64,000 nt of DNA. It comes from Frigoribacterium sp. CFBP 13712 (lineage in GTDB: Bacteria; Actinomycetota; Actinomycetes; Actinomycetales; Microbacteriaceae). Positions 113-54,644 of the stretch are shown piece after piece. The notes beneath the pieces were generated by a model, which was not told where the DNA came from, did not search any database, and worked only from the letters and a program-made list of their open reading frames with translations. Within the stretch, counting starts at the first letter, position 1. Every line of letters starts with the position of its first letter. Both the position numbers and the translations under genes were made by a program. The stretch lies in the NCBI RefSeq assembly GCF_014842255.1, contig NZ_JACYVH010000004.1, positions 1 through 64,000 on the forward strand, in the 5' to 3' direction.

Positions 113-263
113 GATCAGGTCCTTTTCTGTGATTCCCGGTGGGGATGAAAAGGATTCGCCACCCTCCCCCGAAAGGATTGGAACGATCTTCTTTCGTTAT
201 CGCCCCGTTACCTGCGCGGGCGACCGGTGATCCGTCGCGCGCCTCCTCAGGGGGGGGTACGAC

Positions 264-294
264 GAAGGGGCCGGGCACATGGCCCGGCCCCTTC
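264..294 (-). terminator. hairpin terminator after the small membrane gene
   Basis: A perfect 13-bp stem (264-276 with 282-294, starting GAAGGGGCCGGGC) encloses a 5-base loop. It lies just beyond the stop codon of the minus-strand gene ending at 302. There is no strong T tract, as is usual for high-GC actinobacterial terminators. Confidence 0.7.
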
Positions 295-301
295 GGCTGG
301 A

Positions 302-592
302 TCAGCCCTGGAACGTCTGGACGGCGATCATCGCTCCGACGACCATCGAGGCGATGTTCGCCGCGATGCCCACGAAGCCGAGGATGATGCCGACGAGCGC
401 CATCGTGCGGGCGTTCTCGCGCTTGCGTGACAGGAAGCCGAGGATGACGGCCGCGATCGCCATGAGGATCCACAGGATCGGGAAGAACGGGCTGAGCACG
501 ACGCTCACGATGCCGAAGACGAGCGACAGGACGGCCATCGTCTTCTTCTGCGTGGCGGGCGTGGCGTCGGGTGCCGGGTTGGCGTAGGTCAT
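302..592 (-). CDS. small membrane protein, DUF4190-like
   Basis: A 96-residue protein with a polar Pro/Ala/Thr-rich N-terminus (residues 1-18) and two or three hydrophobic segments at about 19-54 and 64-93, separated by a basic loop S-R-K-R-E-N. This build resembles the DUF4190 family of small actinobacterial membrane proteins, whose function is unknown. The start at 592 is preceded by AAGGGGAA, 5-7 bases away. The gene stands alone between hutH (opposite strand) and the hairpin at 264-294. The family assignment is tentative; that it is a membrane protein is clear. Confidence 0.7.
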   Translation of the reverse strand: MTYANPAPDATPATQKKTMAVLSLVFGIVSVVLSPFFPILWILMAIAAVILGFLSRKRENARTMALVGIILGFVGIAANIASMVVGAMIAVQTFQG

Positions 593-751
593 GGGTTCCC
601 CTTGGTGTGAAAGATGACAGGCCGTCGTGATCGAACGGCCCGGTACGGATCGAAGATACCGGCAACCGGGGCGGCAGGCACGGACTCGACTCGAAAGGCG
701 CCCACGGCGCGCCCACGGTGCGCGGCCGGGGCGACGCGGTGTGATGTGGTC

Positions 752-2335
752 ATGACCGACTCGACCCGCGCCTCCTCGTCCACCACCGCCCCCGACGAGA
801 CGCCCGTCGTCGTCGGGATCGGCCCCGTCTCGGCCGCCGACGTCGTGCGCGTGGCGCGCCACGGCGTCCGCATCGGGATCGCCGAGGAGGCGCGGGTCGC
901 CGTGGCCGCCAGCCGCACCGTCATCGACGCGCTCGCCACCGACGACCGCCCGCACTACGGCATCTCGACGGGCTTCGGCGCCCTCGCCACGACCTACATC
1001 GACGCCGACCGTCGCACGCAGCTGCAGAAGAGCCTCGTGCGCTCGCACGCCGCCGGATCGGGGCCCGAGGTCGAGCGCGAGGTCGTGCGGGCCCTGATGA
1101 TGCTGCGCATCTCGACCCTGCTGACCGGGCGGACGGGCATCTCCCCCACCACCGTCGAGCGCTACGTCGATCTGCTGAACGCCGGCATCACGCCGATCGT
1201 CGCCGAGTACGGCTCGCTCGGCTGCTCGGGCGACCTGGCCCCTCTCGCCCACTGCGCGCTGGCCCTGATGGGAGAGGGCGACGTGCGCGACGCGTCGGGC
1301 ACGGCCATGCCTGCCGCCGAGGCCCTGGCGGCCGCCGGCATCGAACCGGTCGTGCTCGCCGAGAAGGAGGGTCTGGCGCTGATCAACGGCACCGACGGCA
1401 TGCTCGGCATGCTGACCCTCGCCCTCGCCGACCTCGACCTGCTGCTCGCCACCGCCGACGTCTCGGCCGCGCTGTCGATCGAGGCGCTGCTCGGCACCGA
1501 CGCCGTGTTCGCGGCCGATCTGCACGCGCTCCGCCCGCAGGCCGGGCAGCAGTCGTCGGCCTCGAACCTCCGCCGACTGCTCGCCGGGTCGCCCATCGTC
1601 GCGAGTCACGCCCACCCGGGTCACACCGTCGTGCAGGACGCCTACTCGCTGCGCTGCGCCCCGCAGGTGCACGGCGGCGCGCGCGACACCGTCGACCACG
1701 CCCGCCTGGTCGCCGACCGCGAGCTCGCCTCGGCGGTCGACAACCCCGTCGTCACCGTCGACGGGCGCGTGCAGTCGAACGGGAACTTCCACGGGGCGCC
1801 GGTCGCCTACGTGCTCGACTTCCTGGCGATCGTCGTCGCGGACGTCGCGAGCATGTCCGAGCGGCGCACCGACCGCCTCCTCGATCCGCATCGCAACCAC
1901 GGGCTGCCGGCGTTCCTGGCGCACGACGCCGGGGTCGACAGCGGACTGATGATCGCGCAGTACACGTCGGCGGGCATCGTCTCGACGCTGAAGCGGCTGG
2001 CCGTGCCGGCGTCGGTGGACTCGATCCCGTCGTCGGCCATGCAGGAGGACCACGTGTCGATGGGCTGGTCGGCCGCCCGCAAGCTGCGGACCGCCGTCGA
2101 CGGACTCGCCCGCGTCGTGGGCATCGAGGTGCTGGCCGCTGCTCGCGCCCTCGAGCTGCGCGCCCCGCTCGAGATGGGGGCTCCGGCGCGCGCGGTCGTC
2201 GAGGCCCTGCGGCCCGAGGTCGGCGGACCGGGGCCGGATCGCTGGCTCGCGCCGGAGATCGACGCCGCGCACGCCGCCGTCGCGTCGGGCCGGGTGCGGG
2301 CTGCGGCCGAGTCGGCCGTGGGGGCGCTGGACTGA
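752..2335 (+). CDS. hutH: histidine ammonia-lyase
   Basis: Deaminates L-histidine to trans-urocanate and ammonia, the first step of histidine degradation. The 527-residue protein has the conserved YGISTGFG segment (about residues 69-76) and the prosthetic-group loop G-S-L-G-C-S-G-D-L-A-P-L. The tripeptide that cyclises to the MIO electrophile is Cys-Ser-Gly at 158-160 instead of the commoner Ala-Ser-Gly; I recall the Cys variant from streptomycete HutH. The start at 752 was chosen because the following residues align with the family; no strong ribosome site precedes it, so it may be translated without a leader. No other hut gene is adjacent, so the rest of the pathway must lie elsewhere. Confidence 0.93.
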   Translation: MTDSTRASSSTTAPDETPVVVGIGPVSAADVVRVARHGVRIGIAEEARVAVAASRTVIDALATDDRPHYGISTGFGALATTYIDADRRTQLQKSLVRSHAAGSGPEVEREVVRALMMLRISTLLTGRTGISPTTVERYVDLLNAGITPIVAEYGSLGCSGDLAPLAHCALALMGEGDVRDASGTAMPAAEALAAAGIEPVVLAEKEGLALINGTDGMLGMLTLALADLDLLLATADVSAALSIEALLGTDAVFAADLHALRPQAGQQSSASNLRRLLAGSPIVASHAHPGHTVVQDAYSLRCAPQVHGGARDTVDHARLVADRELASAVDNPVVTVDGRVQSNGNFHGAPVAYVLDFLAIVVADVASMSERRTDRLLDPHRNHGLPAFLAHDAGVDSGLMIAQYTSAGIVSTLKRLAVPASVDSIPSSAMQEDHVSMGWSAARKLRTAVDGLARVVGIEVLAAARALELRAPLEMGAPARAVVEALRPEVGGPGPDRWLAPEIDAAHAAVASGRVRAAAESAVGALD

Positions 2336-2467
2336 CGCGTCGCCTGGCCGCCGCGGGGGGTTCGGCGGGTCCGTGTCGGCGGCGGCGGGTGCGCTGGGCT
2401 GACGCGGCGGGGGCGCGGCGGGTCCGTGTCGGCGGCGGCGGGTCAGCGCTGACCCGCCGCGGATGAC

Positions 2468-2599
2468 GGGAACCCGCCGAACCCCCTCGGGACATGCAGG
2501 AGGCGCGGTGCGGGAACCCGCCGAACCCGATGGGGACACGCGGGAGGCGCGGGGCCGGAACCCGCCGGACCACGCGGGGATACGCAGGAGGCGCGGTGC
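2468..2599. repeat. three tandem 44-bp imperfect repeats
   Basis: Units begin at 2468, 2512 and 2556, each exactly 44 bp. Each opens with a GGAACCCGCCG-type segment and closes with a GGAGGCGCGG-type segment. The last unit runs into the hairpin at 2586-2624. The array fills most of the 297-base gap between the convergent hutH and mmpL genes. The bases before it (2340-2460) are also GC-rich and repetitive (GGCGGCGGCGGGT twice) and hold no gene. Confidence 0.85.
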
Positions 2600-2624
2600 G
2601 GGATCTCCCCGCACCGCGCCTCCT
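2586..2624. terminator. AGGAGGCGCGG inverted-pair hairpin between convergent genes
   Basis: A perfect 17-bp stem (2586-2602 with 2608-2624) with a 5-base loop, made from two inverted copies of AGGAGGCGCGGTGCGGG. It sits between the ends of hutH (plus) and mmpL (minus), so it can stop transcription from both sides. Confidence 0.75.
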
Positions 2625-2632
2625 CGGTTCCG

Positions 2633-9699: not shown

Positions 9700-10668
9700 T
9701 CAGAGGTGCCCGACGGCCGCGGGGGCCACCGGGACGACGTCGATGTCGTCAGGGAAGGTCTGGTCGAGGGAGGGGACGATGCTGCCGGGCAGGGCCGCCG
9801 CGGCGGCTCCCGACGCGACGGCCTGGGCGAGGCGCGCGGGGGCGGGAGCGCCCGTCGTCTCGGCGAGCAGGTAGCCGGACAGCGACGAGTCGCCGGCGCC
9901 CACCGTGCTCAGGGCGGTGATGACGGGGGCCGCGGCGAACCACGAGCCCTCGCCGTCGATCAGCAGGGCGCCGGCGCTGCCGAGGGTCAGCAGGACGGTC
10001 TCGACGCCGAGCCCGCGGAGGCGACGCGCGCCCTCGACGGCGGACGCGGGGTCGGCCTCGTACTCGGCGGGGTCGCCGCCGACGATCTCGGCGAGCTCCT
10101 CCGCGTTCGGCTTGACCAGATCGACGCCGACGCCCGAGGCGATGAGAGCGGCGAAGGGCTCGCCCGACGAGTCGACCGCGATGCGGGGTGCGTCGTCACC
10201 GCAGGAGGCGCGCACGGCCCGGACGACGTCGGCCAGCCAGGTGGTCGGCAGGCCGGGCGGCAGCGAGCCGGCCAGCACCAGCCACGAGGCGAGCGGCGCG
10301 TGCTCGACGATCAGCGCTGTCAGCGCGTCGGCGTGGGCGCTGAGATCGGGGCCGAGCTCGTTGATCTTGGTGGTCGTGCCGCCGGGCTCGGTGACGGTGA
10401 CGTTCGAGCGCAGGCGCACGTCGATCGGGAGGTTGACCGTCGGCACGCCCCGCTCGCGGAGGGCGACGAGCACCGGGTCGTCGAGCGCGCCGGGCAGCAC
10501 GGCGACCGTCTCGGCACCCGAGGCGACCAGTGCGCGCGAGACGTTGACGCCCTTGCCGCCCGGCTCGTCGGTTGTGCTCACGGACCGCTGGACGGCACCG
10601 CGCTGCAGCTGACCCGAGAGCTCGATGGTGCGGTCGAGCGAGGGGTTCGCGGTGACGGTGAGGATCAT
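9700..10668 (-). CDS. fruK: 1-phosphofructokinase
   Basis: Phosphorylates fructose 1-phosphate to fructose 1,6-bisphosphate. This PfkB-family kinase has the N-terminal M-I-L-T-V-T-A-N-P-S-L-D, the substrate segment P-G-G-K-G-V-N-V-S-R, and the ATP/catalytic segment S-T-V-G-A-G-D-S near residue 250. I give the family-typical start at 10668 (322 residues). An in-frame ATG at 10773 overlaps the deoR stop as ATGA and has GAGGTGAT 9 bases before it, so a form with a 35-residue Pro/Gln/His-rich extension may be the real product. Operon with the deoR gene before it and fruA after it. Confidence 0.9.
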   Translation of the reverse strand: MILTVTANPSLDRTIELSGQLQRGAVQRSVSTTDEPGGKGVNVSRALVASGAETVAVLPGALDDPVLVALRERGVPTVNLPIDVRLRSNVTVTEPGGTTTKINELGPDLSAHADALTALIVEHAPLASWLVLAGSLPPGLPTTWLADVVRAVRASCGDDAPRIAVDSSGEPFAALIASGVGVDLVKPNAEELAEIVGGDPAEYEADPASAVEGARRLRGLGVETVLLTLGSAGALLIDGEGSWFAAAPVITALSTVGAGDSSLSGYLLAETTGAPAPARLAQAVASGAAAAALPGSIVPSLDQTFPDDIDVVPVAPAAVGHL

Positions 10669-12987: not shown

Positions 12988-13028
12988 AGTGAGGTGCGGT
13001 GTCGACGCCTCGGAGAAGGAGGCGCGGG

Positions 13029-13733
13029 TCAGGCGGGCTCGACCGCCGAGTCGCGCGATCGTGCACGACCGACGGCGAGGCCGCGCTGCGAGGACCAGAA
13101 CGAGCGGGCGGTCTCGACCAGTTCGGCGGCGCCGACGTTCGCGCCGAAGGCGAGCGAGCCGGGCTCGAGCGAGATGCCGTCGGCGAGGCTCGGCAGCGCG
13201 ACCGGGTCGAAGCCGATCGCATCGACGATCTCGGCGACGCGGGCCAGGGCCGCCTCGTCGTCGGCGGCCAGCGCGATCGCCTTGCGCTCGGGGTCGCCGG
13301 CGGGCAGCGCGCCCTCATCGAGGTCGTGATAGCCCATGTGGTTGAAGCCCTTGACGATGATCGAGTCGGGCAGGTGCCGCTGCACGAGCTCGCTCGTCGA
13401 CTGCCGCACGTCGGCCAGGTCGTCGCGGATGCCGTCGGTCTCCCACCAGTAGTTCATCGCGTCGACGACGATCTTGCCGGCGAGGGCGTCGACCGGCACG
13501 GAGTCGAGCTTGCCGAGCGGGAGCGCGAGCACGACGATGTCGGCCTCGCGGGCCGCCTCCTCCGACCAGACGGCCCGGGCACCCGGGGCGATCACGTCGA
13601 CGATCAGGCGGATGCGCGCGGGGTCGCCCGACCCGGAGAGGAGCACCGGGTGCCCCGCGGCGTGCAGGAGGCGGGCGAGCACCGTGCCGACCTTGCCGGC
13701 GCCGAGGATTCCGATGGTGGCAGGAGACGTCAT
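13029..13733 (-). CDS. NADP-binding oxidoreductase, F420-dependent NADP reductase-like
   Basis: A 234-residue protein with an N-terminal Rossmann fold ([11 protein letters not shown], about residues 6-16) of the F420_oxidored type, followed by the V-D-A-M-N-Y-W segment and a small all-helical end. The family includes F420H2:NADP oxidoreductases and related dinucleotide enzymes; the exact substrate is uncertain. The start at 13733 fits the fold, but no good ribosome site is visible. A single copy of the AGGAGGCGCG element lies right after the stop codon (13017). Confidence 0.78.
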
Positions 13734-17738: not shown

Positions 17739-18335
17739 GTGATCGACCCGCGCACCGCACGCCATGAGGAGGTCGTCATCACCACCGACGATCCCCTCCT
17801 CGACGCCGGCGACGCACTCCTCGCCGCTCGAGCCCGCGACGGCGACGTCCACGCGTACGAGGTCCTGGCCCGTCGGCACGGTCCCCTGATGCGCGTGTAC
17901 GCCTCGCGCCTCCTCGGCTCCGATCTCGAATCCGACGACGTCGTGCAGGACGCGTTCCTCACCGCATGGCGACGACTCGGAGATCTGGAGAACCCCGCGC
18001 AGGTCCGCAACTGGATGATGCGCATCGTCAGCAACAAGAGCATCGACCGCCTTCGCGCCCGGCGCGACCACGACGACATCGATCAGCGCGACCCCGCGGC
18101 ACCCCGGTCGCAGTCGCCCGACCGGGTCGTCGAGGCCCGCCTCCAGATGGACGCCATGTGGACGGCGCTCGACAAGCTCCCCCTCGACCAGCGACGCTGT
18201 TGGCTGCTGCGCGAGACCGCCGAGTACTCGTACGCCGAGATCGCCGAGGCCCTGGGCATGTCGGTCTCGACCGTCCGCGGGCGGATAGCCCGAGCACGCA
18301 CCTTCCTGATGACGGAGATGGAGGCATGGCGATGA
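17739..18335 (+). CDS. RNA polymerase sigma-70 family (ECF-type) sigma factor
   Basis: A 198-residue sigma factor with region 2 at about residues 38-105 (Y-E-V-L-A-R-R-H-G-P-L-M-R, then D-D-V-V-Q-D-A-F-L-T-A-W-R-R-L) and region 4 at about 138-190 (Y-A-E-I-A-E-A-L-G-M-S-V-S-T-V-R-G-R-I-A). The GTG at 17739 is the nearest in-frame start and has GAAGGG upstream. The next gene overlaps by ATGA. Standing back to back with the Asp23 operon, it is the likely regulator of the whole envelope-stress cluster. Confidence 0.88.
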   Translation: MIDPRTARHEEVVITTDDPLLDAGDALLAARARDGDVHAYEVLARRHGPLMRVYASRLLGSDLESDDVVQDAFLTAWRRLGDLENPAQVRNWMMRIVSNKSIDRLRARRDHDDIDQRDPAAPRSQSPDRVVEARLQMDAMWTALDKLPLDQRRCWLLRETAEYSYAEIAEALGMSVSTVRGRIARARTFLMTEMEAWR

Positions 18336-19447: not shown

Positions 19448-19577
19448 GGGGCCGATGGCGCCCCCGTGACCCGCCGGGGCTCCGGACGCGACGGGCACCG
19501 CGCCTCCTCGGCTCGGCGACCTTCGGCGTGTGTTCTGCGGTTTCATGGAGGACCACCCCGCACTCAGAAGGTCGTCC

Positions 19578-21604: not shown

Positions 21605-22630
21605 ATGCCCGAGAACACCGCCCCCCTGACCGGTTCGAGCACGATCGGCCGCTGGCTCGAGCACTCCGAGGGCGGGCCGGCCCTGCGGGGCGCGCTCGCC
21701 CAGGGCGGGGAGTTCGACGAGAGCACCCTCACCCCGGTGCTCGGCCTACCCCTGCAGCAGCTCGTGTCGCTCAGCCAGGGCCGACTGCCCCAGGAGCTCG
21801 TCGACGGCCTCGTGCTGCAGGTCAACGGCGGGGTCCGGCCCGACGACACCGACGACGCCGACGGCCCGTGGCGCGAGACCATCACCGCCGGTCGCTTCGC
21901 AGGGCGGACGGTCGTCGTGACCGGGGCCGCGGGCGGCATCGGAAAGGCCACCGCGTCGCGTGTCGCCCGAGAGGGCGGGCGCGTGATCGCCGTCGACATC
22001 ACCGCGCCGGGGCTGGAGGCGCTGGTCGCCTCCCTGCCCGACAGCACCGTCGAGACAGTGGTCGGCGACATCACCAGCCAGGCCGACATCGACCGCATCG
22101 TCGAGGTCGCGGGCGGCCGCATCGGCGCGCTGGCGAACATCGCCGGCATCAACGACGACTTCTCGCCGCTGCACGAGACGAGCGACGCCATGTGGGAGCG
22201 CGTCATCGGCATCAATCTGACCGGCGGTTTCAAGCTCTCGCGCGCCGTCATCCCGGTCATGCTCGCGGCGGGCCGGGGCTCGATCGTGAACGTCGCCTCC
22301 GAGGCGGGTCTGCGCGGCAACGCGTCGGGCAACGCCTACACGGTGTCGAAGCACGGCGTCGTCGGGCTGACGAAGTCGGCCGCGTTCATGTACGCGAAGC
22401 AGGGCCTGCGGGTCAACGCGGTCGCCCCCGGCGGCGTCGCGACCGGCATCCCGTTCCCCGCGAACGTGTCGGAGGCGGGTTCGGCGCGACTGCGGCCCTT
22501 CCAGGCGGCCATCCCGACCGTCGCCACGGCCGAGGAGCTCGCCGCGTCGATCACGTTCCTGCTGAGCGACGACGCGGTCAACATCAACGGCGCGGTGCTC
22601 GCCTCGGACGGCGGCTGGTCGGTCCAGTAG
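21605..22630 (+). CDS. SDR oxidoreductase with an extra N-terminal domain
   Basis: A 341-residue protein. Residues about 98-341 are a classical SDR: T-G-A-A-G-G-I-G for the cofactor, N-V-A-S-E, and the active Y-T-V-S-K-H. The first 75-80 residues are extra; they carry S-T-I-G-R-W-L-E-H-S and P-L-Q-Q-L, which recalls the C-terminal extension of some actinobacterial glycoside hydrolases (STVGEWL-type). This match is from memory. GGAGAAGAG precedes the ATG at 21605. Divergent from the levodione-reductase-like gene and followed by a tetR gene, it likely belongs to the same catabolic unit. Confidence 0.82.
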   Translation: MPENTAPLTGSSTIGRWLEHSEGGPALRGALAQGGEFDESTLTPVLGLPLQQLVSLSQGRLPQELVDGLVLQVNGGVRPDDTDDADGPWRETITAGRFAGRTVVVTGAAGGIGKATASRVAREGGRVIAVDITAPGLEALVASLPDSTVETVVGDITSQADIDRIVEVAGGRIGALANIAGINDDFSPLHETSDAMWERVIGINLTGGFKLSRAVIPVMLAAGRGSIVNVASEAGLRGNASGNAYTVSKHGVVGLTKSAAFMYAKQGLRVNAVAPGGVATGIPFPANVSEAGSARLRPFQAAIPTVATAEELAASITFLLSDDAVNINGAVLASDGGWSVQ

Positions 22631-22659: not shown

Positions 22660-22697
22660 AGGAGGCGCGGGTCGGCGAAGCCCAGGAGGCGCGGGTC
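22660..22697. repeat. two direct copies of CAGGAGGCGCGGGTCGGCGA
   Basis: Near-identical 20-base units begin at 22659 and 22683 in the gap between the SDR and tetR genes. They are members of the AGGAGGCGCG family in direct rather than inverted order, so they do not form a hairpin with each other. Confidence 0.8.
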
Positions 22698-34516: not shown

Positions 34517-36418
34517 CTACGACCCGCCCCGCGCCTCCTCGTCGGCCGCGACGTCCTTCTGCACGGCGAACTGGGTCCGGTGCAGCTCTTCGTAGCGGCC
34601 CGCCGCGGCGATCAGCTCGTCGTGCGTGCCGCGCTCCACGATGGAGCCGTCCTCCACCACCAGGATCATGTCCGCGCTGCGGATGGTGGAGAGGCGGTGC
34701 GCGATCACCATCGCCGTCCGACCCTCGAGCGCCTCGCTCAGCGCCGCCTGCACGGCCGCCTCGGACGTGGAGTCCAGGGCCGCCGTCGCCTCGTCGAGGA
34801 TGACGACGCGCGGCTGGGCGATCAGGAGGCGCGCGATGGTCATCCGCTGACGCTCGCCTCCCGAGAGCCGGTAGCCGCGCTCCCCCACCATCGTGTCGAG
34901 CTGGTCGGGCAGCGAGCGGATGAGCGGCTCGAGCCGCGCACGGCGGATGGCGTCCCACACCTCGTCGTCGGACGCCTCGGGCCTCGCGAACCGCAGGTTG
35001 GAGAGGATCGTCTCGTGGAACAGATGGCCGTCCTGGGTCACCATGCCCAGGGTGCGCCGCAGGGAGGCGGAGGTCACGTCGCGGACATCCGTCCCCGCGA
35101 GGCGGACGGCGCCGCCGTCGACGTCGTACAGGCGCGAGAGCAGCTGCGCGATCGTCGACTTGCCGGCACCGGACGTGCCGACGAGGGCGACCGTCTGCCC
35201 CGGCTCGATGCGGAACGACACACCGTGCAGCACCTCGTCGCCACCGCGGGTGTCCAGTGTGGACACCTCCTCGAGGGAGGCGAGGGACACCTTGTCGGCG
35301 GACGGGTAGGCGAAGCGGACGTCGTCGAACTCGACGGCCACCGGGCCCTCGGGCACGACGACGGCGTCGGGCTTCTCGGTGATGAGCGGTTCGAGGTCGA
35401 GCACCTCGAAGACGCGCTCGAAGCTGACCACGGCGCTCATGATCTCCACCCGGGCGTTCGCGAGACCGGTCAGCGGCACGTAGAGGCGGGTGAGGAGGAG
35501 CGCCAGGGTGACCACCTCGCCGGTGTCCAGCTGACCGGCCAGGGCGAGGAACCCGCCGAGCCCGTAGACGAGCGCCAAGGCGAGCGCGGAGACGAGCGTC
35601 AGCGCGGTGACGAAGACGAACTGCAGCAGCGCACTGCGGACGCCGATGTCGCGGACCCGGGCGGCGCGGACGCGGAACTCCTCGGCCTCCTCGTCGGGGC
35701 GGCCGAACAGCTTGACGAGGGTGGCGCCGGGTGCCGAGAAGCGCTCGGTCATCTGGGTGCTCATCGCGGAGTTGTGGTCGGCGGCCTCGCGACGGAGCGC
35801 GGCGAGACGGCTGCCCATGCGCCGCGCGGGCACCAGGAAGATGGGAAGCATGATCACGGCGAGGACCGTGACGAGCCAGGACGTGCTGAGCATGACGATC
35901 AGGGTGAGGACGAGGGCCACGATGTTCGTGACCACGCCCGACAGCGTGCCGCTGAAGGCCTGCTGGGCGCCGATGACGTCGTTGTTCAGACGGCTCACGA
36001 GGGCGCCCGTCCGGGTGCGCGTGAAGAACGCGATCGGCATCTTCTGCACGTGGTCGAACACGGCGGTGCGGAGGTCGAGGATCACGCCCTCGCCGATCCG
36101 CGCCGAGAACCAGCGCGTCACGAGCGACACGGCGGCGTCGGCCACGGCGACCGCGGCGATGAGGACGGCGAGCCGCACGATCGTGGCCACCTCGCCCCGC
36201 GCGACGATGACGTCGACCACCCGGCCGGCCAGCACCGGCGTCGCGACCGCGAGGAAGGCCCCGACGATCGACAGGGCGATGAACACCACCAGCCTGGACC
36301 GGTAGGGCACCGCGAACTTCATGATGCGCCGCACGGCCTCGCGGGAGATGCCGTGCTGGCCGTCTCTCGCGCTCGAGATCTTGTAGAGCGAGCTCCAGGC
36401 CGCGCCTTCCATGCTCAT
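34517..36418 (-). CDS. ABC exporter, fused membrane and ATPase domains
   Basis: A 633-residue half transporter of the multidrug/lipid type. Six membrane helices lie at about 40-320; the ATPase domain (about 360-610) has Walker A G-T-S-G-A-G-K-S-T, signature L-S-G-G-E-R-Q-R, Walker B V-V-I-L-D-E-A-T-A-A-L-D and the switch in I-A-H-R-L-S. It would work as a homodimer, as no second half is adjacent. It converges with the SulP gene; a copy of the AGGAGGCGCG element lies within its last codons. Confidence 0.9.
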   Translation of the reverse strand: MSMEGAAWSSLYKISSARDGQHGISREAVRRIMKFAVPYRSRLVVFIALSIVGAFLAVATPVLAGRVVDVIVARGEVATIVRLAVLIAAVAVADAAVSLVTRWFSARIGEGVILDLRTAVFDHVQKMPIAFFTRTRTGALVSRLNNDVIGAQQAFSGTLSGVVTNIVALVLTLIVMLSTSWLVTVLAVIMLPIFLVPARRMGSRLAALRREAADHNSAMSTQMTERFSAPGATLVKLFGRPDEEAEEFRVRAARVRDIGVRSALLQFVFVTALTLVSALALALVYGLGGFLALAGQLDTGEVVTLALLLTRLYVPLTGLANARVEIMSAVVSFERVFEVLDLEPLITEKPDAVVVPEGPVAVEFDDVRFAYPSADKVSLASLEEVSTLDTRGGDEVLHGVSFRIEPGQTVALVGTSGAGKSTIAQLLSRLYDVDGGAVRLAGTDVRDVTSASLRRTLGMVTQDGHLFHETILSNLRFARPEASDDEVWDAIRRARLEPLIRSLPDQLDTMVGERGYRLSGGERQRMTIARLLIAQPRVVILDEATAALDSTSEAAVQAALSEALEGRTAMVIAHRLSTIRSADMILVVEDGSIVERGTHDELIAAAGRYEELHRTQFAVQKDVAADEEARGGS

Positions 36419-39775: not shown

Positions 39776-39842
39776 GAAGCGCAGGCCGATTGCCAGGGTC
39801 ACTCCGGCGGGCGGGTGCCGATCGGGACCCGACCCGCGCCTC

Positions 39843-40238
39843 CTAGGCGATCCGCTCGTCGTATTCGCCCCAGGCCTCTCGCACGTCGCCGAAGTGCTCG
39901 ATCGACCATTCTTCGAGCGCCTTGAGCGGCGCGCAGAGGGTGCGACCGGCCGTCGTGAGCTCGTACTCGACGCGGGGCGGCACCTCGGCGAACACCGTGC
40001 GGGTCACGAGCCCGTCGCGCTCGAGACCGCGCAGCGTCTGCGTCAGCATCTTCTGCGAGATGCCCGACACGCTCTTGCGGATCTCGGTGAAGCGGTGCGG
40101 GCCCGACTCGAGGGTGCCGACGATCAGGACCGTCCACCGGTCGCCGATGCGATCGAGCACCCGCCGCGTGGGGCAGCCGTCGGCATAGGGGTCGAGCGTG
40201 AGAGAGGGGTCGGTTACCAAGAAGTGCCTACTTCCCAA
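39843..40238 (-). CDS. HxlR-family regulator
   Basis: A winged-helix regulator of the HxlR type: C-P-T-R-R-V-L-D-R-I-G-D-R-W-T-V-L-I near residue 22, G-I-S-Q-K-M-L-T-Q-T-L-R-G-L-E-R-D-G-L-V as recognition region. The full open length is 131 residues with a TTG start; a start a few codons later is equally possible. It diverges from an NAD(P)-binding protein gene 72 bases away, the usual HxlR/oxidoreductase pairing for redox or quinone sensing. Repeated CCAAGA boxes lie in the shared promoter (near 40219-40242). Confidence 0.85.
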   Translation of the reverse strand: MGSRHFLVTDPSLTLDPYADGCPTRRVLDRIGDRWTVLIVGTLESGPHRFTEIRKSVSGISQKMLTQTLRGLERDGLVTRTVFAEVPPRVEYELTTAGRTLCAPLKALEEWSIEHFGDVREAWGEYDERIA

Positions 40239-40310: not shown

Positions 40311-40961
40311 ATGAGCACCATCACCGTCGTCGGAGGAACCGGCTACGCCGGCAGCGCCATCGTCCGCGAGGCCGCATCGCGCGGTCACGAGGTCGTCTCG
40401 TTCAGCCGTTCCGTCCCCGCCGAGGAGGCGCGGGTCGACGGCGTCCGCTACGAGACCGGTTCGATGCTCGACGCCGAGGCCCGCCTCCGTGCCGTCACCG
40501 GCAGCGACGTCGTGGTCTCGTCGCTCTCACCCCGCGGCGAGCTCGACGGGAGGATCGTCGAGGCCGATCTGGCCCTCGCCGCCCTCGCGGCCGAGCACGG
40601 CGTCCGCTTCGGCGTCGTCGGCGGCTACAGCTCGCTCCGACTCGAGGAGGGCGGCCCGCGTCAGGCCGACACCGACCAGCTGCCCCCCGAGTTCGCGAGC
40701 GAGGCCAAGCAGATGAACGAGGTGCTCGAACTGCTCGGCGGCACGGACGACAGCCTCGACTGGTTCTTCGTCTCGCCCGCCCAGCTGTTCGGCGCGTACG
40801 CCCCCGGCGAGGCGCGCGGCGAGTACCGCACCGGCGGCGACCGGGCCTTCACCGACGCCGAGGGCGTCTCGGCCGTGAGCGGGCAGGACTTCGCCCTCGC
40901 GATCGTCGACGAGATCGACACCCCGAAGCACCGCCGCGCGCACTTCAGCGTCGCCTACTGA
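40311..40961 (+). CDS. NAD(P)-binding reductase, NmrA/YwnB-like
   Basis: A 216-residue Rossmann-fold protein: V-V-G-G-T-G-Y-A-G-S-A at residues 5-15, then V-G-G-Y-S-S-L near 100 and the F-V-S-P-A-Q-L-F segment near 152. Such atypical SDRs act as quinone or flavin reductases or redox sensors. AAGGAGCACG precedes the ATG. It is probably controlled by the divergent hxlR. Its last codons and stop are tandemly duplicated downstream (see repeat at 40947). Confidence 0.83.
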   Translation: MSTITVVGGTGYAGSAIVREAASRGHEVVSFSRSVPAEEARVDGVRYETGSMLDAEARLRAVTGSDVVVSSLSPRGELDGRIVEADLALAALAAEHGVRFGVVGGYSSLRLEEGGPRQADTDQLPPEFASEAKQMNEVLELLGGTDDSLDWFFVSPAQLFGAYAPGEARGEYRTGGDRAFTDAEGVSAVSGQDFALAIVDEIDTPKHRRAHFSVAY

Positions 40962-41034
40962 GCGTCGCCTACTGAGCGTCGCCTCACGGGCATCATCTGA
41001 CGGGCGTCGCCTGACGGGCGTCGCCTACTGAGCG
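40947..41034. repeat. 14-bp tandem repeat that includes a stop codon
   Basis: The unit AGCGTCGCCTACTG occurs at 40947 and 40961 exactly, with diverged GCGTCGCCT copies up to 41034. It contains the last codons and stop of the reductase gene (plus) and, on the other strand, supplies the final codons of the next gene (minus, stop at 41025-41027). Confidence 0.8.
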
Positions 41035-41588
41035 TCGCCCTGCAGGTCGGCCACGCGGTCGCCGGCGACCCGCTCGTCGAGCGCCCGGTCGTCGGCGCCG
41101 CGGTCGTCGACGGCGCTGCCGTCGAGCGCGCGGGTCGCCGCCTCCGTCACGTCGCGTGCGAGCGCGATGGCGTCCACCCGCAGCAGACGGGCCGCCCGCG
41201 ACCTCGACACGTCGAAGGCCACTGCGAGGGCGGAGGCTGTGTAGCCGGCCGCGCCGAGTTCGCGTGCGATGCGTCGCTGCTCGACCCGCGCCTCCTCGTC
41301 CGGGAGGTCGGGTCGGGTCGCAGCCGCCCAGCGACGCCGTGCGTCGTCGGGGATGTCGATCACGAGGCGCACGTCGATGTCCTCCGGGCGGACGGCCAGC
41401 CAGAGGGCGGCCAGCTCGCGCGACTCGTCGACCAGGGTGTCGACGTCGACCGCCGAACCGTGGGCGGTGAACGTGCCGGTGGTGCGATCGCCGCCCTCGG
41501 CGCCGGATCCGGTCACGACGACCGTCCACGACGTGGGCGTCGGCCGCACCGCGCGGGCGTGGACGGACCTTCTGCTCGGGGTGGTCAT
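41025..41588 (-). CDS. uncharacterised protein with a possible helix-turn-helix
   Basis: A 187-residue protein not recognised. Residues about 1-75 are beta-rich, and about 90-145 include G-A-A-G-Y-T-A-S-A-L-A-V-A-F-D-V-S-R-S-R, which has the spacing of a helix-turn-helix. The last 35 residues are acidic repeats with D-D-R and V-A-D/G-D-R. Position 41287-41296 holds a copy of the AGGAGGCGCG element, read here as E-E-A-R. A regulatory role is inference. Confidence 0.62.
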   Translation of the reverse strand: MTTPSRRSVHARAVRPTPTSWTVVVTGSGAEGGDRTTGTFTAHGSAVDVDTLVDESRELAALWLAVRPEDIDVRLVIDIPDDARRRWAAATRPDLPDEEARVEQRRIARELGAAGYTASALAVAFDVSRSRAARLLRVDAIALARDVTEAATRALDGSAVDDRGADDRALDERVAGDRVADLQGDAQ

Positions 41589-46143: not shown

Positions 46144-46231
46144 CCCTCCACCCTCCGCCGCCCCGCGGCATCCTCCCCGCCACCGGGCACGCCCCGAGGA
46201 GGCGCGTCTCCGCGCCCGAAAGGACCTCACG

Positions 46232-49070: not shown

Positions 49071-49088
49071 CGTCTCAGCGGACGTGCG

Positions 49089-50288
49089 TCACGCCCCCCG
49101 CAGTCGGGTGATGCGCTCGCGGATGCGGGAGTCGAGATCGTCGAACTCGTCGAGGACGTCCATCGCCGCGTAGGCCCGGCCGCGGACGCGCTCCGTGACG
49201 GCTTCGACGATGTGGTTCTCCGCCAGCACCTCGACGCCGCGATACACGCTCCGCTCAGGGAGGTCGCGCAGCTCGTCGACGAGCTGCTCGACCGTGAAGA
49301 CGGGCAGCGTCAGCAGAACGGGCAGGATCCGGTCGGCTGCACTGCCTGCCCGAGGTCGGGCCTGTTCCCGCCAGTCCTCCACGTACCGGGCGAATCGGCG
49401 CGCAGTGCCTCGCGCCTCACGGGCCGCGGTCTCGACAGAGAGCGCGAGGTCGGTGACGATCGGCGCGACGTCGCCGGTGCGGTAGGCGGTGAGCAGCGAG
49501 AAGTAGTGGGTCGTGTCCGCAGCGAGGGCGCTCGCCACAGGCAGCACCGTGTGCGGCGTCACGCCGCGGCGGCGGAGGATCGCCCCGATGAGCGCCCGGC
49601 CGATGCGGCCGTTGCCGTCGGTGAACGGGTGGATGCTCTCGAACTGCGCGTGGGCGATCGCCGCCTGAGTGATCGGTTCGACGTCGGCCCGGTTCGAGAA
49701 GACGACCAGATCGCGGAGGAGGGCGGGGACGTCATCCGGGGGCGGCGGGACGTAGAGCGCGTTCCGCGGGGAGTGCTGCGAGCCGCCGATCCAGTTCTGC
49801 ACGTCGCGCACGCGTCCGGCGTACGGGCGCTCGGTCACGTCCGGGTCGTCTCGCATGAGCGCCCCGTGCGCGGTGAGGATCTCGTCGAGCGCGATGGTCG
49901 CACCGGAAGCAGCGATGAGCTTCGTGATGGCGGCCCCGGCGGCCACCATCGACATCGCCGAGTCGTTCTCCTTCAGGCCGCCGATGGCCCGTGCGAACGC
50001 GAGGGGCGATGCCTCGACGTGTTCGATACGGCTCGAGGCCACCGACTCCATGCGGATCAGGAAGCCGGCGAGCGGGCTGAGCACACCGTCGGCGACCCGC
50101 TCGAGGTCGGTCGCCTCGTGGCGGGCTCGAGAGAGATCGCGACTTGAGACGACGGGTACCTCGAGATCGGCGATCATCGGGGGGATCGACGCCCGGACCT
50201 CGGAGAGCATCCGGTCTTCCCGCGTGCCGCGGCGGCTCGCGCTAGCCCAGGGCACGGTTCGCGTCGTGTGGGCCGGCCACTCCGCCAT
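49089..50288 (-). CDS. Fic-domain AMP-transferase-type protein
   Basis: A 399-residue Fic protein with the active motif H-P-F-T-D-G-N-G-R-I-G-R from His220. The inhibitory helix before it reads S-S-R-I-E-H (Ser85-His90): the ATP-blocking Glu89 is kept, but the usual Gly/Asn after it is His. The C-terminal part (about 295-395) resembles a winged helix. The same layout as the protein at 11696-12907, though sequence identity is limited, so they are distant paralogs or independent acquisitions. No antitoxin gene is adjacent. Confidence 0.88.
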   Translation of the reverse strand: MAEWPAHTTRTVPWASASRRGTREDRMLSEVRASIPPMIADLEVPVVSSRDLSRARHEATDLERVADGVLSPLAGFLIRMESVASSRIEHVEASPLAFARAIGGLKENDSAMSMVAAGAAITKLIAASGATIALDEILTAHGALMRDDPDVTERPYAGRVRDVQNWIGGSQHSPRNALYVPPPPDDVPALLRDLVVFSNRADVEPITQAAIAHAQFESIHPFTDGNGRIGRALIGAILRRRGVTPHTVLPVASALAADTTHYFSLLTAYRTGDVAPIVTDLALSVETAAREARGTARRFARYVEDWREQARPRAGSAADRILPVLLTLPVFTVEQLVDELRDLPERSVYRGVEVLAENHIVEAVTERVRGRAYAAMDVLDEFDDLDSRIRERITRLRGA

Positions 50289-50424
50289 CGGGCATCCTCT
50301 CGTCGACGACCGAACTCATGATGACAGTTGTCGAGCCTAGATGACAATAGCGAGGAGGTCGTCGCCGCTCGGTGTCGGCGCGGTGCCGGTCCGACCGACA
50401 CCGCGCCTCCTGCAGGCCCCGAGG

Positions 50425-50781
50425 TCAGTCGGTCGGGGGCGTGTAGAACTGCAGGTCGTTGCCCTCGGTGTCCTTGAACGGCAGGATGCGGCCCCACGGG
50501 TGCTCGCTGATCGTGCCGGTCACGTCGGCGCTGCGCGACTGCAGGTCGGCCAAGGCGTCCTCGAGGGTGCCGTCGGGCTGGAACGTGATGACCGCGCCGC
50601 CCTCGCTCGACGCCGCGGCCTCCTCGCGACCGTTCAGGCCGATCATCAGGCCGTTCGCGTCGATCTCGGTCCAGTCGTCGCTCTCGCTCGTCACCGTGAG
50701 ACCGAGTGCGTCACGGTAGAACGCCGTCGCCCGCCCCATGTCGGTCACGGGCACCCACACTGTTGCCACTCCGCTTGCCAT
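50425..50781 (-). CDS. VOC/glyoxalase-fold protein
   Basis: A 118-residue vicinal-oxygen-chelate protein made of two beta-alpha-beta-beta-beta units: V-W-V-P-V-T-D-M-G-R-A-T-A-F-Y-R-D-A-L-G-L near the start and I-L-P-F-K-D-T-E-G-N-D-L-Q-F-Y at the end. Such proteins act on methylglyoxal, antibiotics or other small molecules; the metal ligands are not fully conserved. AAGGAG lies 6 bases before the ATG at 50781. Confidence 0.86.
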   Translation of the reverse strand: MASGVATVWVPVTDMGRATAFYRDALGLTVTSESDDWTEIDANGLMIGLNGREEAAASSEGGAVITFQPDGTLEDALADLQSRSADVTGTISEHPWGRILPFKDTEGNDLQFYTPPTD

Positions 50782-50923
50782 GTCGACTCCTTCGTCCGCC
50801 ACCGGAATGCCCGATGCAGCGTCTGATCCTTGCTACGCCCCGCACCGTGCGAGCCGTGTCGCTAGTCAGGGCACTTTCCCATCCGGAGGCGTGTCTCACG
50901 GGGGCCGTCGCCCTACCGACCCA

Positions 50924-50972
50924 CCCGCAGGAGGCGCGGTGCCGGTCGGACTCGCACCGCGCCTCCTGCGGG
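50924..50972. terminator. perfect 19-bp AGGAGGCGCGG hairpin
   Basis: CCCGCAGGAGGCGCGGTGC (50924-50942) pairs perfectly with 50954-50972 around an 11-base loop. It lies in the 335-base gap between the divergent VOC and alcohol dehydrogenase genes, where a terminator is not required; the rest of the gap holds no gene. Another single copy lies at 50402-50411 just beyond the VOC gene's stop. Confidence 0.7.
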
Positions 50973-51116
50973 CCGTCTCCTCGGGGGGCCCTCTCAGGGC
51001 CACCCACGGTCGGCGCGGGAGCGTAACGTCGCAGACGGAGGGCCCGTCGTCGAGCACCGTGTTCCGACCCGCCCCTCGAACCCCCGCGAACCGAACCCAC
51101 CACCCCCAGGAGAACC

Positions 51117-52163
51117 ATGCGCACCGTCAACGCCTACGCGGCACCGTCCGCCACCGAGCCCCTCGTCAAGACGACCATCGAGCGCCGCGACGTCGGCCCG
51201 AAGGACGTCATGATCGACATCGCCTACGCCGGCATCTGCCACAGCGACATCCACACCGTCCGCGGCGAGTGGGGCGAGATCCAGTACCCGCAGGTCGTCG
51301 GTCACGAGATCGTCGGCACCGTCTCGGAGGTCGGCTCCGAGGTCACCAAGCACAAGGTCGGCGACCGCGTCGGCGTCGGCTGCATGGTCAACTCGTGCGG
51401 CGAGTGCGAGTACTGCAAGCGCGGCGACGAGCAGTACTGCGCCAAGGGCAACGTCGGCACCTACACGGGCGTCGACCCCGCCGACGGCACCATCACGCAG
51501 GGCGGCTACTCGCAGGCCGTCGTCGTCACGGAGGACTTCGTGCTCCGCGTGCCCGAGTCGCTCGACTACGACAAGGTCGCCCCGCTGCTCTGCGCCGGCA
51601 TCACCCTGTACTCGCCCCTGCACCACTGGGGCGTGACCGAGGGCACCAAGGTCGCCATCGTCGGCATGGGGGGACTCGGCCACATGGGCGTCAAGATCGC
51701 CGCCGCCCTCGGCGCCGAGGTCACCGTGCTGTCGCAGACCACCTCGAAGAAGGACGACTCGCTGCGCTTCGGCGCCAAGGCGCACTACGCGACCAGCGAC
51801 GAGCAGACCTTCACCGACCTGGCGAACTCGTTCGACCTGATCATCAACACCGTCTCGGCGAAGGTCGACATGGGCGCGTACCTCGGTCTGCTGGCCGTCG
51901 ACGGCACGCTCGTCAACGTCGGCGCCCCGTCCGAGCCGCTCGAGGTGCCCGCGTTCGCGCTCATCCCCGCGCGTCGCAGCTGGGCCGGTTCGGCCATCGG
52001 CGGCATCCGCGAGACGCAGGAGATGCTCGACTTCTGCGCCGAGCACGGCATCGTGCCCGAGACCGAGCTCATCGACGCCGACCAGATCAACGAGGCGTAC
52101 GAGCGCGTGCTGAAGTCCGACGTCCGCTACCGCTTCGTCATCGACGCCGCGACGTTCGCCTGA
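51117..52163 (+). CDS. NADP-dependent zinc alcohol dehydrogenase, YahK/CAD-type
   Basis: A 348-residue medium-chain dehydrogenase that reduces aldehydes. Catalytic zinc ligands C-H-S-D-I-H (Cys near 38), G-H-E (near 61) and Cys near 158; structural zinc set C-G-E-C-E-Y-C near 93-99; cofactor loop G-M-G-G-L-G-H-M near 180. The A-G-I-C-H-S-D pattern matches the cinnamyl-alcohol-dehydrogenase/YahK branch. AGGAGAACC precedes the ATG. It stands alone. Confidence 0.92.
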
Positions 52164-52293
52164 GCCCAGGCCCGGCGGCCCGGGGCTTCCGAGCTCCGGG
52201 CCCCGAGCTCTCGGCCCGGGGCCCAGGCTCCGAGGCTCCGTCCTCAGTGCCCGAGCGATAGGCACCGGTTATCCGCATTGCGCAACCCCGACA

Positions 52294-52319
52294 GCCGGCT
52301 GACCGAACCGTCAGCCGGC
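52294..52319. promoter_or_regulatory. inverted repeat before the alpha/beta hydrolase gene
   Basis: GCCGGCTGAC (52294-52303) pairs with 52310-52319 around CGAACC, 55 bases before the hydrolase start. It could be an operator or a leader hairpin. The 120 bases before it (52164-52290) are a GC-rich palindromic tract that probably ends transcription of the alcohol dehydrogenase gene; no gene is seen there. Confidence 0.5.
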
Positions 52320-52373
52320 CCGGGTACGAACGTGGGGGGAAGGCCGCAGCAGCGGCCGGGAAGGCACAACCTC

Positions 52374-53210
52374 ATGACTGAGATCACCGCCCACCACGGG
52401 CTCTTCAAAGACACGAACCTCCACGTCGACGACTTCGGCGGCTCGGGACGCACCGTCGTGCTCATCCACGGCTGGCCCCTCTCCGGCGAGTCGTGGAGCA
52501 AGCAGGTCCCCGCGTTCCGCGACGCCGGCTACCGCGTCGTCACCTACGACCGCCGAGGCTTCGGACGCAGCGACAAGCCGAAGACCGGATACGACTACGA
52601 CCACCTGACCGAAGACCTGCACACGGTCCTCACCGAGCTCGACCTGAACGACGTCACGCTCGTCGGGTTCTCGATGGGCGGCGGCGAGGTCGCCCGCTAC
52701 TTCACGAAGTACGGCACCGAGCGTCTGCACAGCGTCGTCTTCGCCTCGGCCGTCCCGCCGTACCTGATGAAGACCGACGACAACCCCGAGGGCCCTCTCA
52801 CCAAGGAGGCGGCGGCCGACATGACCGCCGGCCTCACCAAGGACGAGGACTCCTTCTACGACGAGTTCACCACCGGCTTCTTCTCGGTCGACGGCGTGCT
52901 CAAGGTCTCCGAGGCCGACCGCCAGGACGCCCTGCGTCTCGCGAAGCAGGCCGACAAGGCCGCCGCGCTCGAGGCCATGGCCTCGTTCGCGAACACGGAC
53001 TTCCGTGACGACCTCGCCAAGGTGACCGTGCCCACGCTGGTCATCCACGGCGACGGCGACGCGACGGTCCCCTACGAGGGTTCGGGTGCTCGTACGCACA
53101 AGGCGATCGCGGGCTCCGAGCTGCACGTCATCGCGGGAGCGCCTCACGGCGCCAACGTGAGCGACGCCGACGAGTTCAACCGCGTCGTGCTCGCCTTCCT
53201 CGCGAAGTAG
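52374..53210 (+). CDS. alpha/beta hydrolase, non-heme chloroperoxidase/esterase-like
   Basis: A 278-residue hydrolase: oxyanion segment H-G-W-P-L-S (near 31), nucleophile G-F-S-M-G-G-G-E (Ser near 98), acid in H-G-D-G-D-A-T-V-P near 230, and His in G-A-P-H-G-A-N near 258. The closest group by pattern is the cofactor-free chloroperoxidase/arylesterase family. I use the ATG at 52374; the frame before it is low-complexity. It is followed by a terminator hairpin at 53239. Confidence 0.9.
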   Translation: MTEITAHHGLFKDTNLHVDDFGGSGRTVVLIHGWPLSGESWSKQVPAFRDAGYRVVTYDRRGFGRSDKPKTGYDYDHLTEDLHTVLTELDLNDVTLVGFSMGGGEVARYFTKYGTERLHSVVFASAVPPYLMKTDDNPEGPLTKEAAADMTAGLTKDEDSFYDEFTTGFFSVDGVLKVSEADRQDALRLAKQADKAAALEAMASFANTDFRDDLAKVTVPTLVIHGDGDATVPYEGSGARTHKAIAGSELHVIAGAPHGANVSDADEFNRVVLAFLAK

Positions 53211-53238
53211 CACTGCTCGCTGAGTAGCACTGCACCCC

Positions 53239-53281
53239 AGGAGGCGCGGTGCCGGTCCTCGAGACCGGCACTGCGCCTCCT
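53239..53281 (+). terminator. AGGAGGCGCGG hairpin after the hydrolase gene
   Basis: A 19-bp stem (53239-53257 with 53263-53281) around a 5-base loop, with one G-T wobble, 29 bases after the hydrolase stop. Same family as the hairpins at 2586 and 50924. Confidence 0.8.
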
Positions 53282-53327
53282 CGGTTCCCGGCCCGCGCCG
53301 GGCCGCCGTCGAGCCGCGACCCGTACG

Positions 53328-54644
53328 GTGGCAGAGGTGAACAGCTCGCAGCACACCATCTGGTGGCACGTCTACCCGCTCGGCTTCGCAGGTGCGGACA
53401 CGACCGGGGCGGATCGCTCGCCGGCACCGCGCCTCCTCGACCTCGTGCCCTGGCTCGACCATCTACTGGCTCTCGGTGCGAACGGACTCGCCCTCGGGCC
53501 GGTCTTCGAGTCGTCGACGCACGGCTACGACACGATCGACTGGCTCGCGGTCGATCCGCGTCTCGGGACCGAGGCCGACCTGGTCACCCTGATCGAGGCG
53601 GCGCACGCGAAGGGCGTGAAGGTGATGCTCGACGGCGTCTTCAACCACGTCGGGCCCGAGTTCCCGGCGCTGATCGAGGCGCGGAACGACCCCTCGTCGC
53701 CGGCGGCCTCATTGTTCCGCCGTGACGACGACGGCAGCCTGGGCACCTTCGAGGGCCACGGCGGGCTGATCGCGCTCGACCACGACTCGCCCGAGGTCGC
53801 CCGTCTGGTGACCGAGGTGCTCACCTACTGGGCCGACCGCGGCGTCGACGCCTGGCGACTCGATGCGGCGTACGCGGTGCCGCCGGCGTTCTGGGCGACC
53901 GTGCTGCCGGTGCTGCGCGAGCGCCACCCCGACGTGTACGTGGTCGGCGAGGTGCTGCACGGCGACTACGTCGCGGCGGTGGCCGACGGCGGTCTCGACA
54001 GCGTGACGCAGTACGAGCTGTGGCAGGGCGTCTGGCACGGGCTGAACGACGTCAACCTGCACGAGCTCGAGTGGGCCCTGCAGCGTCACGACGGGTTCCT
54101 CGACCACTTCGTGCCGCTCACCTTCGTCGGCAACCACGACGTCACGCGCATCGCGAGTCAGATCGACGACGACCGGCACCACGACCACGCCCTGGCGCTG
54201 CTCTTCACGCTCGGCGGCACGCCGTCCGTCTACTACGGCGACGAACTCGGACTCCGGGCCCTGAAGGAGGAGCGGGTCGGCGGCGACGACGCCGTGCGCC
54301 CGGCGTTCCCCCCGGCGCCCGTCGACGCCCCGGGTGTCGGGGTGCCCGGCGCCCTCCCCGAGGTCCTCGCCCTCCACCAGCGGCTGATCGGCGTGCGACG
54401 CCGGCACCCGTGGCTGCACACCGCCCGCAGCCGCACCGTCTCGGTGTCGAACGAGACGCTCGTGCTCGAGGTCGTCGGCGACGGGCCGGGCGAGGCGCTC
54501 GTCGTGGCGCTGAACCTGGGCGACGACGAGCTGCGCGTGGCCGAGCCGGCGCCGGGCGAGTGGCTGGCCGGCCGCGACGCGGGGCTCGACGGCGACGTGC
54601 TGTCGGTCGGGCCGCACGGCTGGGCGGTCGTCGCGCGACGCTGA
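53328..54644 (+). CDS. GH13 alpha-amylase-family glycosidase
   Basis: A 438-residue glycoside hydrolase of family 13, acting on alpha-glucosidic bonds. The four family regions are present: D-G-V-F-N-H (about 102-107), A-W-R-L-D-A-A (nucleophile Asp179), V-V-G-E-V-L (acid/base Glu208) and F-V-G-N-H-D (Asp271). There is no signal peptide, so it acts inside the cell, and the C-terminal domain is short. GTG start at 53328 or 53337. The AGGAGGCGCG element at 53428-53437 lies within its coding sequence. Confidence 0.88.
   Translation: MAEVNSSQHTIWWHVYPLGFAGADTTGADRSPAPRLLDLVPWLDHLLALGANGLALGPVFESSTHGYDTIDWLAVDPRLGTEADLVTLIEAAHAKGVKVMLDGVFNHVGPEFPALIEARNDPSSPAASLFRRDDDGSLGTFEGHGGLIALDHDSPEVARLVTEVLTYWADRGVDAWRLDAAYAVPPAFWATVLPVLRERHPDVYVVGEVLHGDYVAAVADGGLDSVTQYELWQGVWHGLNDVNLHELEWALQRHDGFLDHFVPLTFVGNHDVTRIASQIDDDRHHDHALALLFTLGGTPSVYYGDELGLRALKEERVGGDDAVRPAFPPAPVDAPGVGVPGALPEVLALHQRLIGVRRRHPWLHTARSRTVSVSNETLVLEVVGDGPGEALVVALNLGDDELRVAEPAPGEWLAGRDAGLDGDVLSVGPHGWAVVARR

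Follow-up and report, generated by a model that had tools for sequence, protein, structure and literature searches.

The question raised by this stretch of DNA is why one 10-mer, AGGAGGCGCG, should recur in it so often. The stretch (hereafter the window) comprises positions 1 to 64,000 of contig NZ_JACYVH010000004.1 of Frigoribacterium sp. CFBP 13712. An exact-match scan of its 64,000 nt found 23 copies across both strands; dinucleotide-shuffled versions contained a mean of 0.81, and four at most among 100 shuffles. A preliminary description of the window had listed 22 positions and estimated that composition would predict roughly one; every position proved to be an exact match, one further copy (at 10203, + strand) had been overlooked, and the shuffles agree with the estimate. 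That description had likened the mix of genic copies and hairpin-forming pairs to known DNA-uptake sequences, with a replication signal, a recombination signal or a mobile repeat as alternatives. Having weighed these, we place at about 0.65 the probability that Frigoribacterium possesses a genus-specific DNA-uptake (self-recognition) sequence, used in natural transformation, with AGGAGGCGCG(G) as its core. The word most likely works like a DNA-uptake sequence (DUS), without our claiming membership in that class.

The excess extends over the whole genome. In the 3.16 Mb (40 contigs) of the genome from which the window comes (G000, of which C1 is one contig; other G numbers denote compared genomes), AGGAGGCGCG occurs 724 + 768 = 1,492 times, 45 times the number recorded for the reversed, uncomplemented control word (17 + 16 = 33 copies). 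The copies are scattered genome-wide, and a confinement to a few kilobases or to one gene family, which the preliminary description would have taken as contrary evidence, was not seen. In a 464-kb sample (C1:1-400000 plus the window) 172 copies were found where an order-4 Markov model predicts 6.7, and in an 824-kb set 329 where it predicts 11.7 (28 times the expectation), the word being the top-scoring 10-mer in both; C1 plus the window (832 kb) gave 335 copies against 11.8 expected. Raising the order to 5, 6, 7 and 8 increased the expectation for the 464 kb to 19, 44, 89 and 158, as subwords of the motif itself then enter the training of the model. A weaker surround extends the word to CCGAGGAGGCGCGGGTCG in the same sample, giving a footprint of ∼16-18 bases, and the two longer forms noticed in the window, one of GGGTCG type and the other a hairpin of GGTGC type, are both real. 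In the 832 kb, one-mismatch neighbours were at or below expectation, except those differing at the first, seventh or last base. The sample contains 71% G+C, and AGGAGG is the complement of the anti-Shine-Dalgarno sequence, so the word might be a by-product of base composition, of codon pairs or of a Shine-Dalgarno-like AGGAGG. This is hardly credible given the size of the excess over the order-4 model and the use of both orientations; moreover, just 6 of the 329 copies have the spacing from a called start that a Shine-Dalgarno sequence would have, and the excess is missing from the other family and phylum genomes sampled.

All 16 Frigoribacterium genomes available carry the excess, with 513-1,570 copies each; 11 of the 15 besides the own genome agree in both forward and reverse counts with named Frigoribacterium genomes, which fixes the genus. 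In contrast, 24 genomes from other genera of the family or order held 4-52 copies, the one most above its control being G023 (52 versus 14). Among 254 further genomes of the family Microbacteriaceae (from a sample of 259, five of them Frigoribacterium) none came near the genus, the highest count being that of G107 (216 versus a control of 75). The same was true of 395 other genomes of the phylum, among which the highest count outside the genus was 149 (control 62); this sample numbered 396 with the own genome included, and five family genomes are shared between the two samples. Sixteen short loci from G107 (genus g70), where the excess is mild, revealed no clear extended form. Copy numbers in twelve Curtobacterium genomes were 22-85, for the most part no higher than the control, G061 (56 versus 19) and G057 (85 versus 69) being the exceptions.

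To follow individual copies between species, we used BLAST to align 400 kb of G000 with its orthologous counterparts in G002 (86% identity) and G006 (81%). The 149 sites compared with G002 comprised 23 that were unaligned, 7 gapped and 119 ungapped; 93 of these 119 were exact in G002, compared with 31.4% for random 10-mers, and one-mismatch neighbour words were exact in 37 of 102 cases (variants with C or G at base 1 were excluded). Identity reached 95-100% at bases 2-10 and 87% at the first base, the far flank standing at ∼81%, and the conserved footprint ran from -2 to ∼+5. The conservation acts on the DNA itself: at 47 genic sites, third codon positions were identical in 92.7% of cases within the motif (n = 151, ∼140 identical) versus 72.0% in the flanks (1165/1618; P = 2 × 10–9). 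As 119 of the 126 aligned sites were ungapped, copies differ mostly by substitution, which tells against a self-inserting mobile short repeat, whether a repetitive extragenic palindromic (REP) sequence or a miniature inverted-repeat transposable element (MITE). Such a repeat would account for the strong consensus, and elements of this sort do exist in these genomes (the AGGAGTTGCC pairs described below); but the footprint belongs to no longer element and genic copies shun the frames that require AGG or CCT codons, and we hold this alternative, which the preliminary description had also raised, to be very unlikely.

Placement was analysed with home-made gene calls derived from a codon model. 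The 329 copies of the 824-kb set comprised 141 non-coding, 187 genic and one on a gene edge, non-coding DNA thus holding 43% of the copies but 13.4% of the bases (P = 3 × 10–39); in sampled stretches of G007 and G015, 48 of 124 and 74 of 143 copies were non-coding. The genic copies occur in all six reading relations. AGG and CCT are rare codons, and the relations needing them were the least used (3 and 13 of 187 copies); the EEAR, RASS and PRLL readings picked out in the window were the three commonest in the 464 kb (13, 16 and 13 of 91). Between genes, 22 sites fell in 7.8 kb of convergent gaps, 36 in 28.3 kb of tandem gaps and 7 in 10.2 kb of divergent gaps, and 47 of the 65 were closer to a 3′ than to a 5′ gene end. 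Most copies are single. The inverted pairs reported from the window recur on the larger scale, 17 head-to-head neighbours (+ then −, <70 bases apart) being found among the 329 copies.

These pairs, together with the bias towards 3′ ends, would also suit a multiplied transcription-terminator stem word, isolated copies of which would be by-products of gene conversion or half-terminators. Curtobacterium offers a parallel: a scan of the collection found a hairpin made from the same word in at least 24 loci among the 80 matches listed there, all 24 of them outside called genes and 21 no more than 40 bases from the 3′ end of one, in genomes whose counts of the word are low. That near-identical hairpin, AGGAGGCGCGGTGCCAGCTGGCACCGCGCCTCCT, often has GGAC/GTCC flanks and stands mostly directly 3′ of genes (24 loci, including L030, L033 and L035); it is a terminator-like element. 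As the explanation for Frigoribacterium, a terminator stem is nevertheless improbable, since 187 of 329 copies are genic, in both orientations and conserved at synonymous positions, and since single copies prevail. The three hairpins in the window, two of them formed by exact pairs, have folding energies of -43 to -48 kcal/mol (z ∼ -8), and a simple scan of those in 50000-54000 found no T-run terminator.

The two orientations of AGGAGGCGCG are used evenly (161 + of 329 in the 824 kb, P = 0.74; 152:160 on C1). On the same contig the word GGGGGAGT is polar, with a strand ratio of 1:66 (the window has two copies, both on the minus strand), and its extended form CGGGGGAGTC was seen 30 times out of 30 on one C1 strand. 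Sampling 20 stretches of 20 kb from each of the complete genomes G007 and G015 showed that GGGGGAGT switches strand around them; it resembles, and is a candidate for, an FtsK-orienting polar sequence (KOPS) or architecture-imparting sequence (AIMS) of FtsK-type translocation. Counted relative to the polar word, copies of AGGAGGCGCG divided 32/34 in G007 (12 stretches) and 53/55 in G015 (14 stretches), those with the polar word tied or missing having been dropped (8 and 6, respectively). This lack of bias beside a strongly polar word makes replication-linked and classical Chi roles unlikely, weakening two of the alternatives proposed for the window, and the RecC family (PF04257) was matched in none of the 16 Frigoribacterium genomes, AdnAB or AddAB not being part of the search; the Escherichia coli control and two of eight other genomes did match.

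A broader form of the idea is that AGGAGGCGCG is a genome-wide binding site for an intracellular protein of nucleoid organisation, repair or recombination, either HIP1-like or Chi-like without polarity. Its abundance on both strands, its conservation at the DNA level and its absence from prophage DNA (see below) would all fit. Chi and KOPS are polar, however, and HIP1 is palindromic, while AGGAGGCGCG is neither; a Chi-like role would in addition have to do without RecC. The preference for non-coding DNA and the head-to-head hairpins are better accommodated by an uptake sequence, and a site of this kind seems rather unlikely.

If AGGAGGCGCG does act in DNA uptake, the machinery should be at hand. 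ComEC was found in all 16 Frigoribacterium genomes (and in 23 of the 24 genomes of other genera), a Tad-type T2SSE ATPase match in 16 of 16, and DprA in all 12 searched, in two pieces in G005 and G010. In the own genome, where ComEA and the Tad locus were inspected, ComEA (SLBB plus helix-hairpin-helix; C1:61074-61709, −) precedes ComEC (C1:58585-61077, −), and a Tad locus (C1:470241-473236) encodes a T2SSE ATPase, a T2SSF protein, a Flp-like DUF4244 protein with a G/XXXXEY site and, as judged by eye, two TadE/F-like frames. PilB-type matches were obtained in 13 of 16 genomes (the G004 locus was the one inspected); with three genomes lacking such a match, a type IV pilus as a necessary partner was unsupported. 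We envisage that a competence surface receptor (a Tad/Flp or type IV pilus pilin, or ComEA) would bind double-stranded DNA bearing the word more tightly, that ComEA and ComEC would import one strand, and that DprA and RecA would recombine it. The resulting bias in uptake, coupled to recombination, could spread new copies and restore decayed ones wherever proteins and promoters permit, and paired copies may double as terminator-like hairpins 3′ of genes.

The split dprA genes revealed DNA free of the motif. In G005 (F. faeni NBRC 103066, as identified by counts; C1:170430-188500, L281-L282) and G010 (VKM Ac-2836; C1:604243-622724, L278-L279) the two pieces lie 18 kb apart. The inserts (∼18 kb, 60-61% G+C) are 71% identical to each other across their longest match; genes for portal, head and tape-measure proteins were recognised in that of G010 (PHROGs), and both are therefore taken as prophages, the one in G005 by similarity only. 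No copy of AGGAGGCGCG was present in the 36.6 kb of the two inserts, where 13.2 would be expected at genome density and ∼8 at that of the flanking DNA retrieved (11 sites in 53.4 kb; 5 in 31.5 kb and 6 in 21.9 kb by genome). Three 20-kb stretches in G015, for which 23.2 copies would be expected, likewise had none; the third was chosen after the first two had been seen. The insertions may reflect a conflict between phage and transformation, or dprA may merely offer attachment sites; in the pneumococcus, prophages disrupting comYC are reported to shut down recombination (PMC12637031). Inspection by eye of the stretch C1:2385001-2405000 of G015 (L276; lower G+C, 0.68; no motif) suggested an FtsK/Tra-like gene and an additional set of type IV pilus-like genes of unusual kind.

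Several observations weigh against a role in uptake. Searches of the literature turned up no uptake or transformation experiment in Frigoribacterium, and no receptor candidate stood out in the analysis. ComEC, DprA and T2SSE ATPases are also found in relatives without the motif, so these genes do not explain it, and the three genomes with no PilB-type match, the own genome among them, keep 1,204-1,492 copies. The motif-free DNA has a lower G+C content (0.60-0.68), which by itself lowers the expected count. No depletion was seen in islands that G000 has and G002 lacks (0.40 versus 0.37 per kb, from 12 sites in 29.9 kb). Spacing is not significantly regular, its coefficient of variation (0.84) lying inside the random 95% range of 0.81-1.13, and in raw numbers one-mismatch copies are more frequent than perfect ones (393 versus 335), the excess over expectation alone favouring the latter (323 versus 154). 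Finally, the sites of G000 are exact in the distant G006 in only 21 of 78 cases, close to the background of 22.5%, whereas G006's own sites are exact in G000 in 21 of 41 cases. The word has drifted in G006, with an A-to-G shift at the first base: GGGAGGCGCG outnumbers AGGAGGCGCG in 400 kb (69 versus 56), GGGAGGCGCGG reaches 482 copies genome-wide, the most among the 16 Frigoribacterium genomes (others, 89-332), and only half of the G000 sites keep their first base in G006. Of the 78 sites, 18 differ at four bases; in Neisseria, many young DUS are reported to be too different to have arisen by point mutation (PMC2397512).

Within the window, the copies illustrate the placements described above. 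The non-coding ones include 238..247 (−), an exact match 3′ of a small gene (302-592, −), 2498..2507 (+) between convergent genes, 13017..13026 (+) directly 3′ of a gene at 13029-13733 (−), 19499..19508 (−), 46197..46206 (+) and 50402..50411 (−), 3′ of a gene at 50425-50760 (−). A head-to-head pair at 2586..2624 (2586 +, 2615 −; hairpin of -43.2 kcal/mol) separates the convergent lyase and MMPL transporter genes, and a second occupies 50929..50967 (50929 +, 50958 −; -48.1 kcal/mol). The copy at 53239..53248 (+), 3′ of a gene at 52374-53210 (+), has an imperfect inverted partner (-45.6 kcal/mol), and two direct copies 24 bases apart, each AGGAGGCGCGGGTCG, lie at 22660..22693 (+), 3′ of a gene at 21605-22630 (+). 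Antisense copies are found within genes for an aromatic amino acid lyase (767..776, −; gene 746-2335, +), a PfkB-family kinase (10203..10212, +, the one overlooked earlier; gene 9700-10668, −), a sigma-70-family protein similar to the extracytoplasmic function type (17905..17914, −; gene 17739-18335, +), an ABC transporter (34824..34833, +; gene 34517-36418, −) and an alpha-amylase-family protein (53428..53437, −; gene 53328-54644, +). Sense copies lie in the lyase gene (885..894, +, reading E-E-A-R), close to the 3′ end of the ABC transporter gene (34530..34539, −), in a gene for an NAD(P)-binding protein (40423..40432, +; gene 40311-40961, +) and in one whose product has no Pfam match (41287..41296, −; gene 41025-41588, −). 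The copy at 39835..39844 (−) overlaps the end of a gene at 39843-40160 (−).

Other repeated words were encountered in passing. C1 contains eight inverted pairs of the form GGCAACTCCT...AGGAGTTGCC, six of them 69-70 bases apart (for example L001, 13164-13233); with their ends GTCGGCAACTCCT, they are a separate intergenic MITE- or REP-like element. The word GGGTTGAGGAGGC of G023 (genus g9) was considered as a possible dialect and rejected, all 13 of its 13 sites being non-coding and part of an intergenic array of REP-like units; it shows smaller excesses in a few further genomes. The arrays at L147 and L148 of G023, made of GGGTTGAGGAGGCGCGAAGCGCCGTCTCG-type units, form a REP-like repeat belonging to a different Microbacteriaceae genus. 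When ten other genomes were searched (20-40 kb each), only the G023 word (score 15.5) exceeded the score of the own word in 40 kb (14.1). Scores near it were those of the palindrome TGAGCGCTCA, over-represented in 40 kb of Curtobacterium G053 (13.6; L150, L151), and of ATTCCGGAGC in G016 (11.7).

A more elaborate scenario is possible, and is advanced here tentatively as something we doubt more than believe: Frigoribacterium may have evolved its own self-recognition word independently of Neisseriaceae and Pasteurellaceae, the first in Gram-positives, recruiting it from a terminator stem word that still forms a hairpin in Curtobacterium; its receptor would be of the Tad/Flp or ComEA type, and word-less prophages would answer by integrating into dprA. 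Should self-recognition by this word be real, it would represent a third, independent case, implying that self-recognition in transformation evolves repeatedly and does so without an outer membrane. It would also point to natural transformation in the Microbacteriaceae, offer 16 genomes of one genus for matching receptor to word, and make word-tagged DNA a handle for the genetic tractability of Frigoribacterium.

Among known systems, HIP1 of cyanobacteria, Chi and KOPS are likewise short, abundant words found genome-wide, from which AGGAGGCGCG differs in having neither a palindrome nor polarity. Sequence-specific uptake was described in 2025 as known only in Neisseriaceae and Pasteurellaceae (PMC12616744). 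No report of an actinobacterial or microbacterial uptake sequence was found in the open-licence literature, longer lists being judged by title, and a text search for the 10-mer gave, among the titles looked at, no paper on repeats in bacteria of this kind. The closest actinobacterial system is that of Micrococcus luteus, which is transformed by way of a Tad/Flp pilus and has ComEA, ComEC and Tad genes (PMC4322843), a set like that of the own genome; unlike the situation proposed for Frigoribacterium, term searches in three Micrococcus papers brought up no mention of an uptake sequence. With the uptake signal sequence (USS) of Pasteurellaceae, as characterised in PMC1626085, AGGAGGCGCG shares a core plus a weaker 3′ flank, a preference for non-coding DNA, and sharing with variants within the family; the 3′ flank is GGTCG here, in contrast to the AT-rich segments of the USS, and the host is Gram-positive. 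The resemblance to the neisserial DUS (receptor ComP) extends to a length of ∼10-12 bases, the lack of orientation bias, many genic copies, head-to-head pairs and dialects. Conservation is also alike, the DUS being 97% conserved versus ∼85% in its flanks and 71% of sites being exact in all six genomes (PMC2397512), compared with mostly 95-97% versus ∼81% and 78% exact between two Frigoribacterium species. Frigoribacterium, however, belongs to another phylum with another cell envelope, and its word is unrelated in sequence. The hallmarks of USS and DUS set out in PMC1626085 are both orientations, genic copies, non-coding preference, inverted pairs, genus sharing, strong consensus and regular spacing. 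As the preliminary description had suspected, most published hallmarks of such sequences recur here, namely abundance, orientation, pairs, non-coding preference, genus-wide sharing with variants, conservation above the flanks (between G000 and G002) and competence genes, a pattern consistent with the idea that AGGAGGCGCG serves Frigoribacterium in the way that DUS serve Neisseria.

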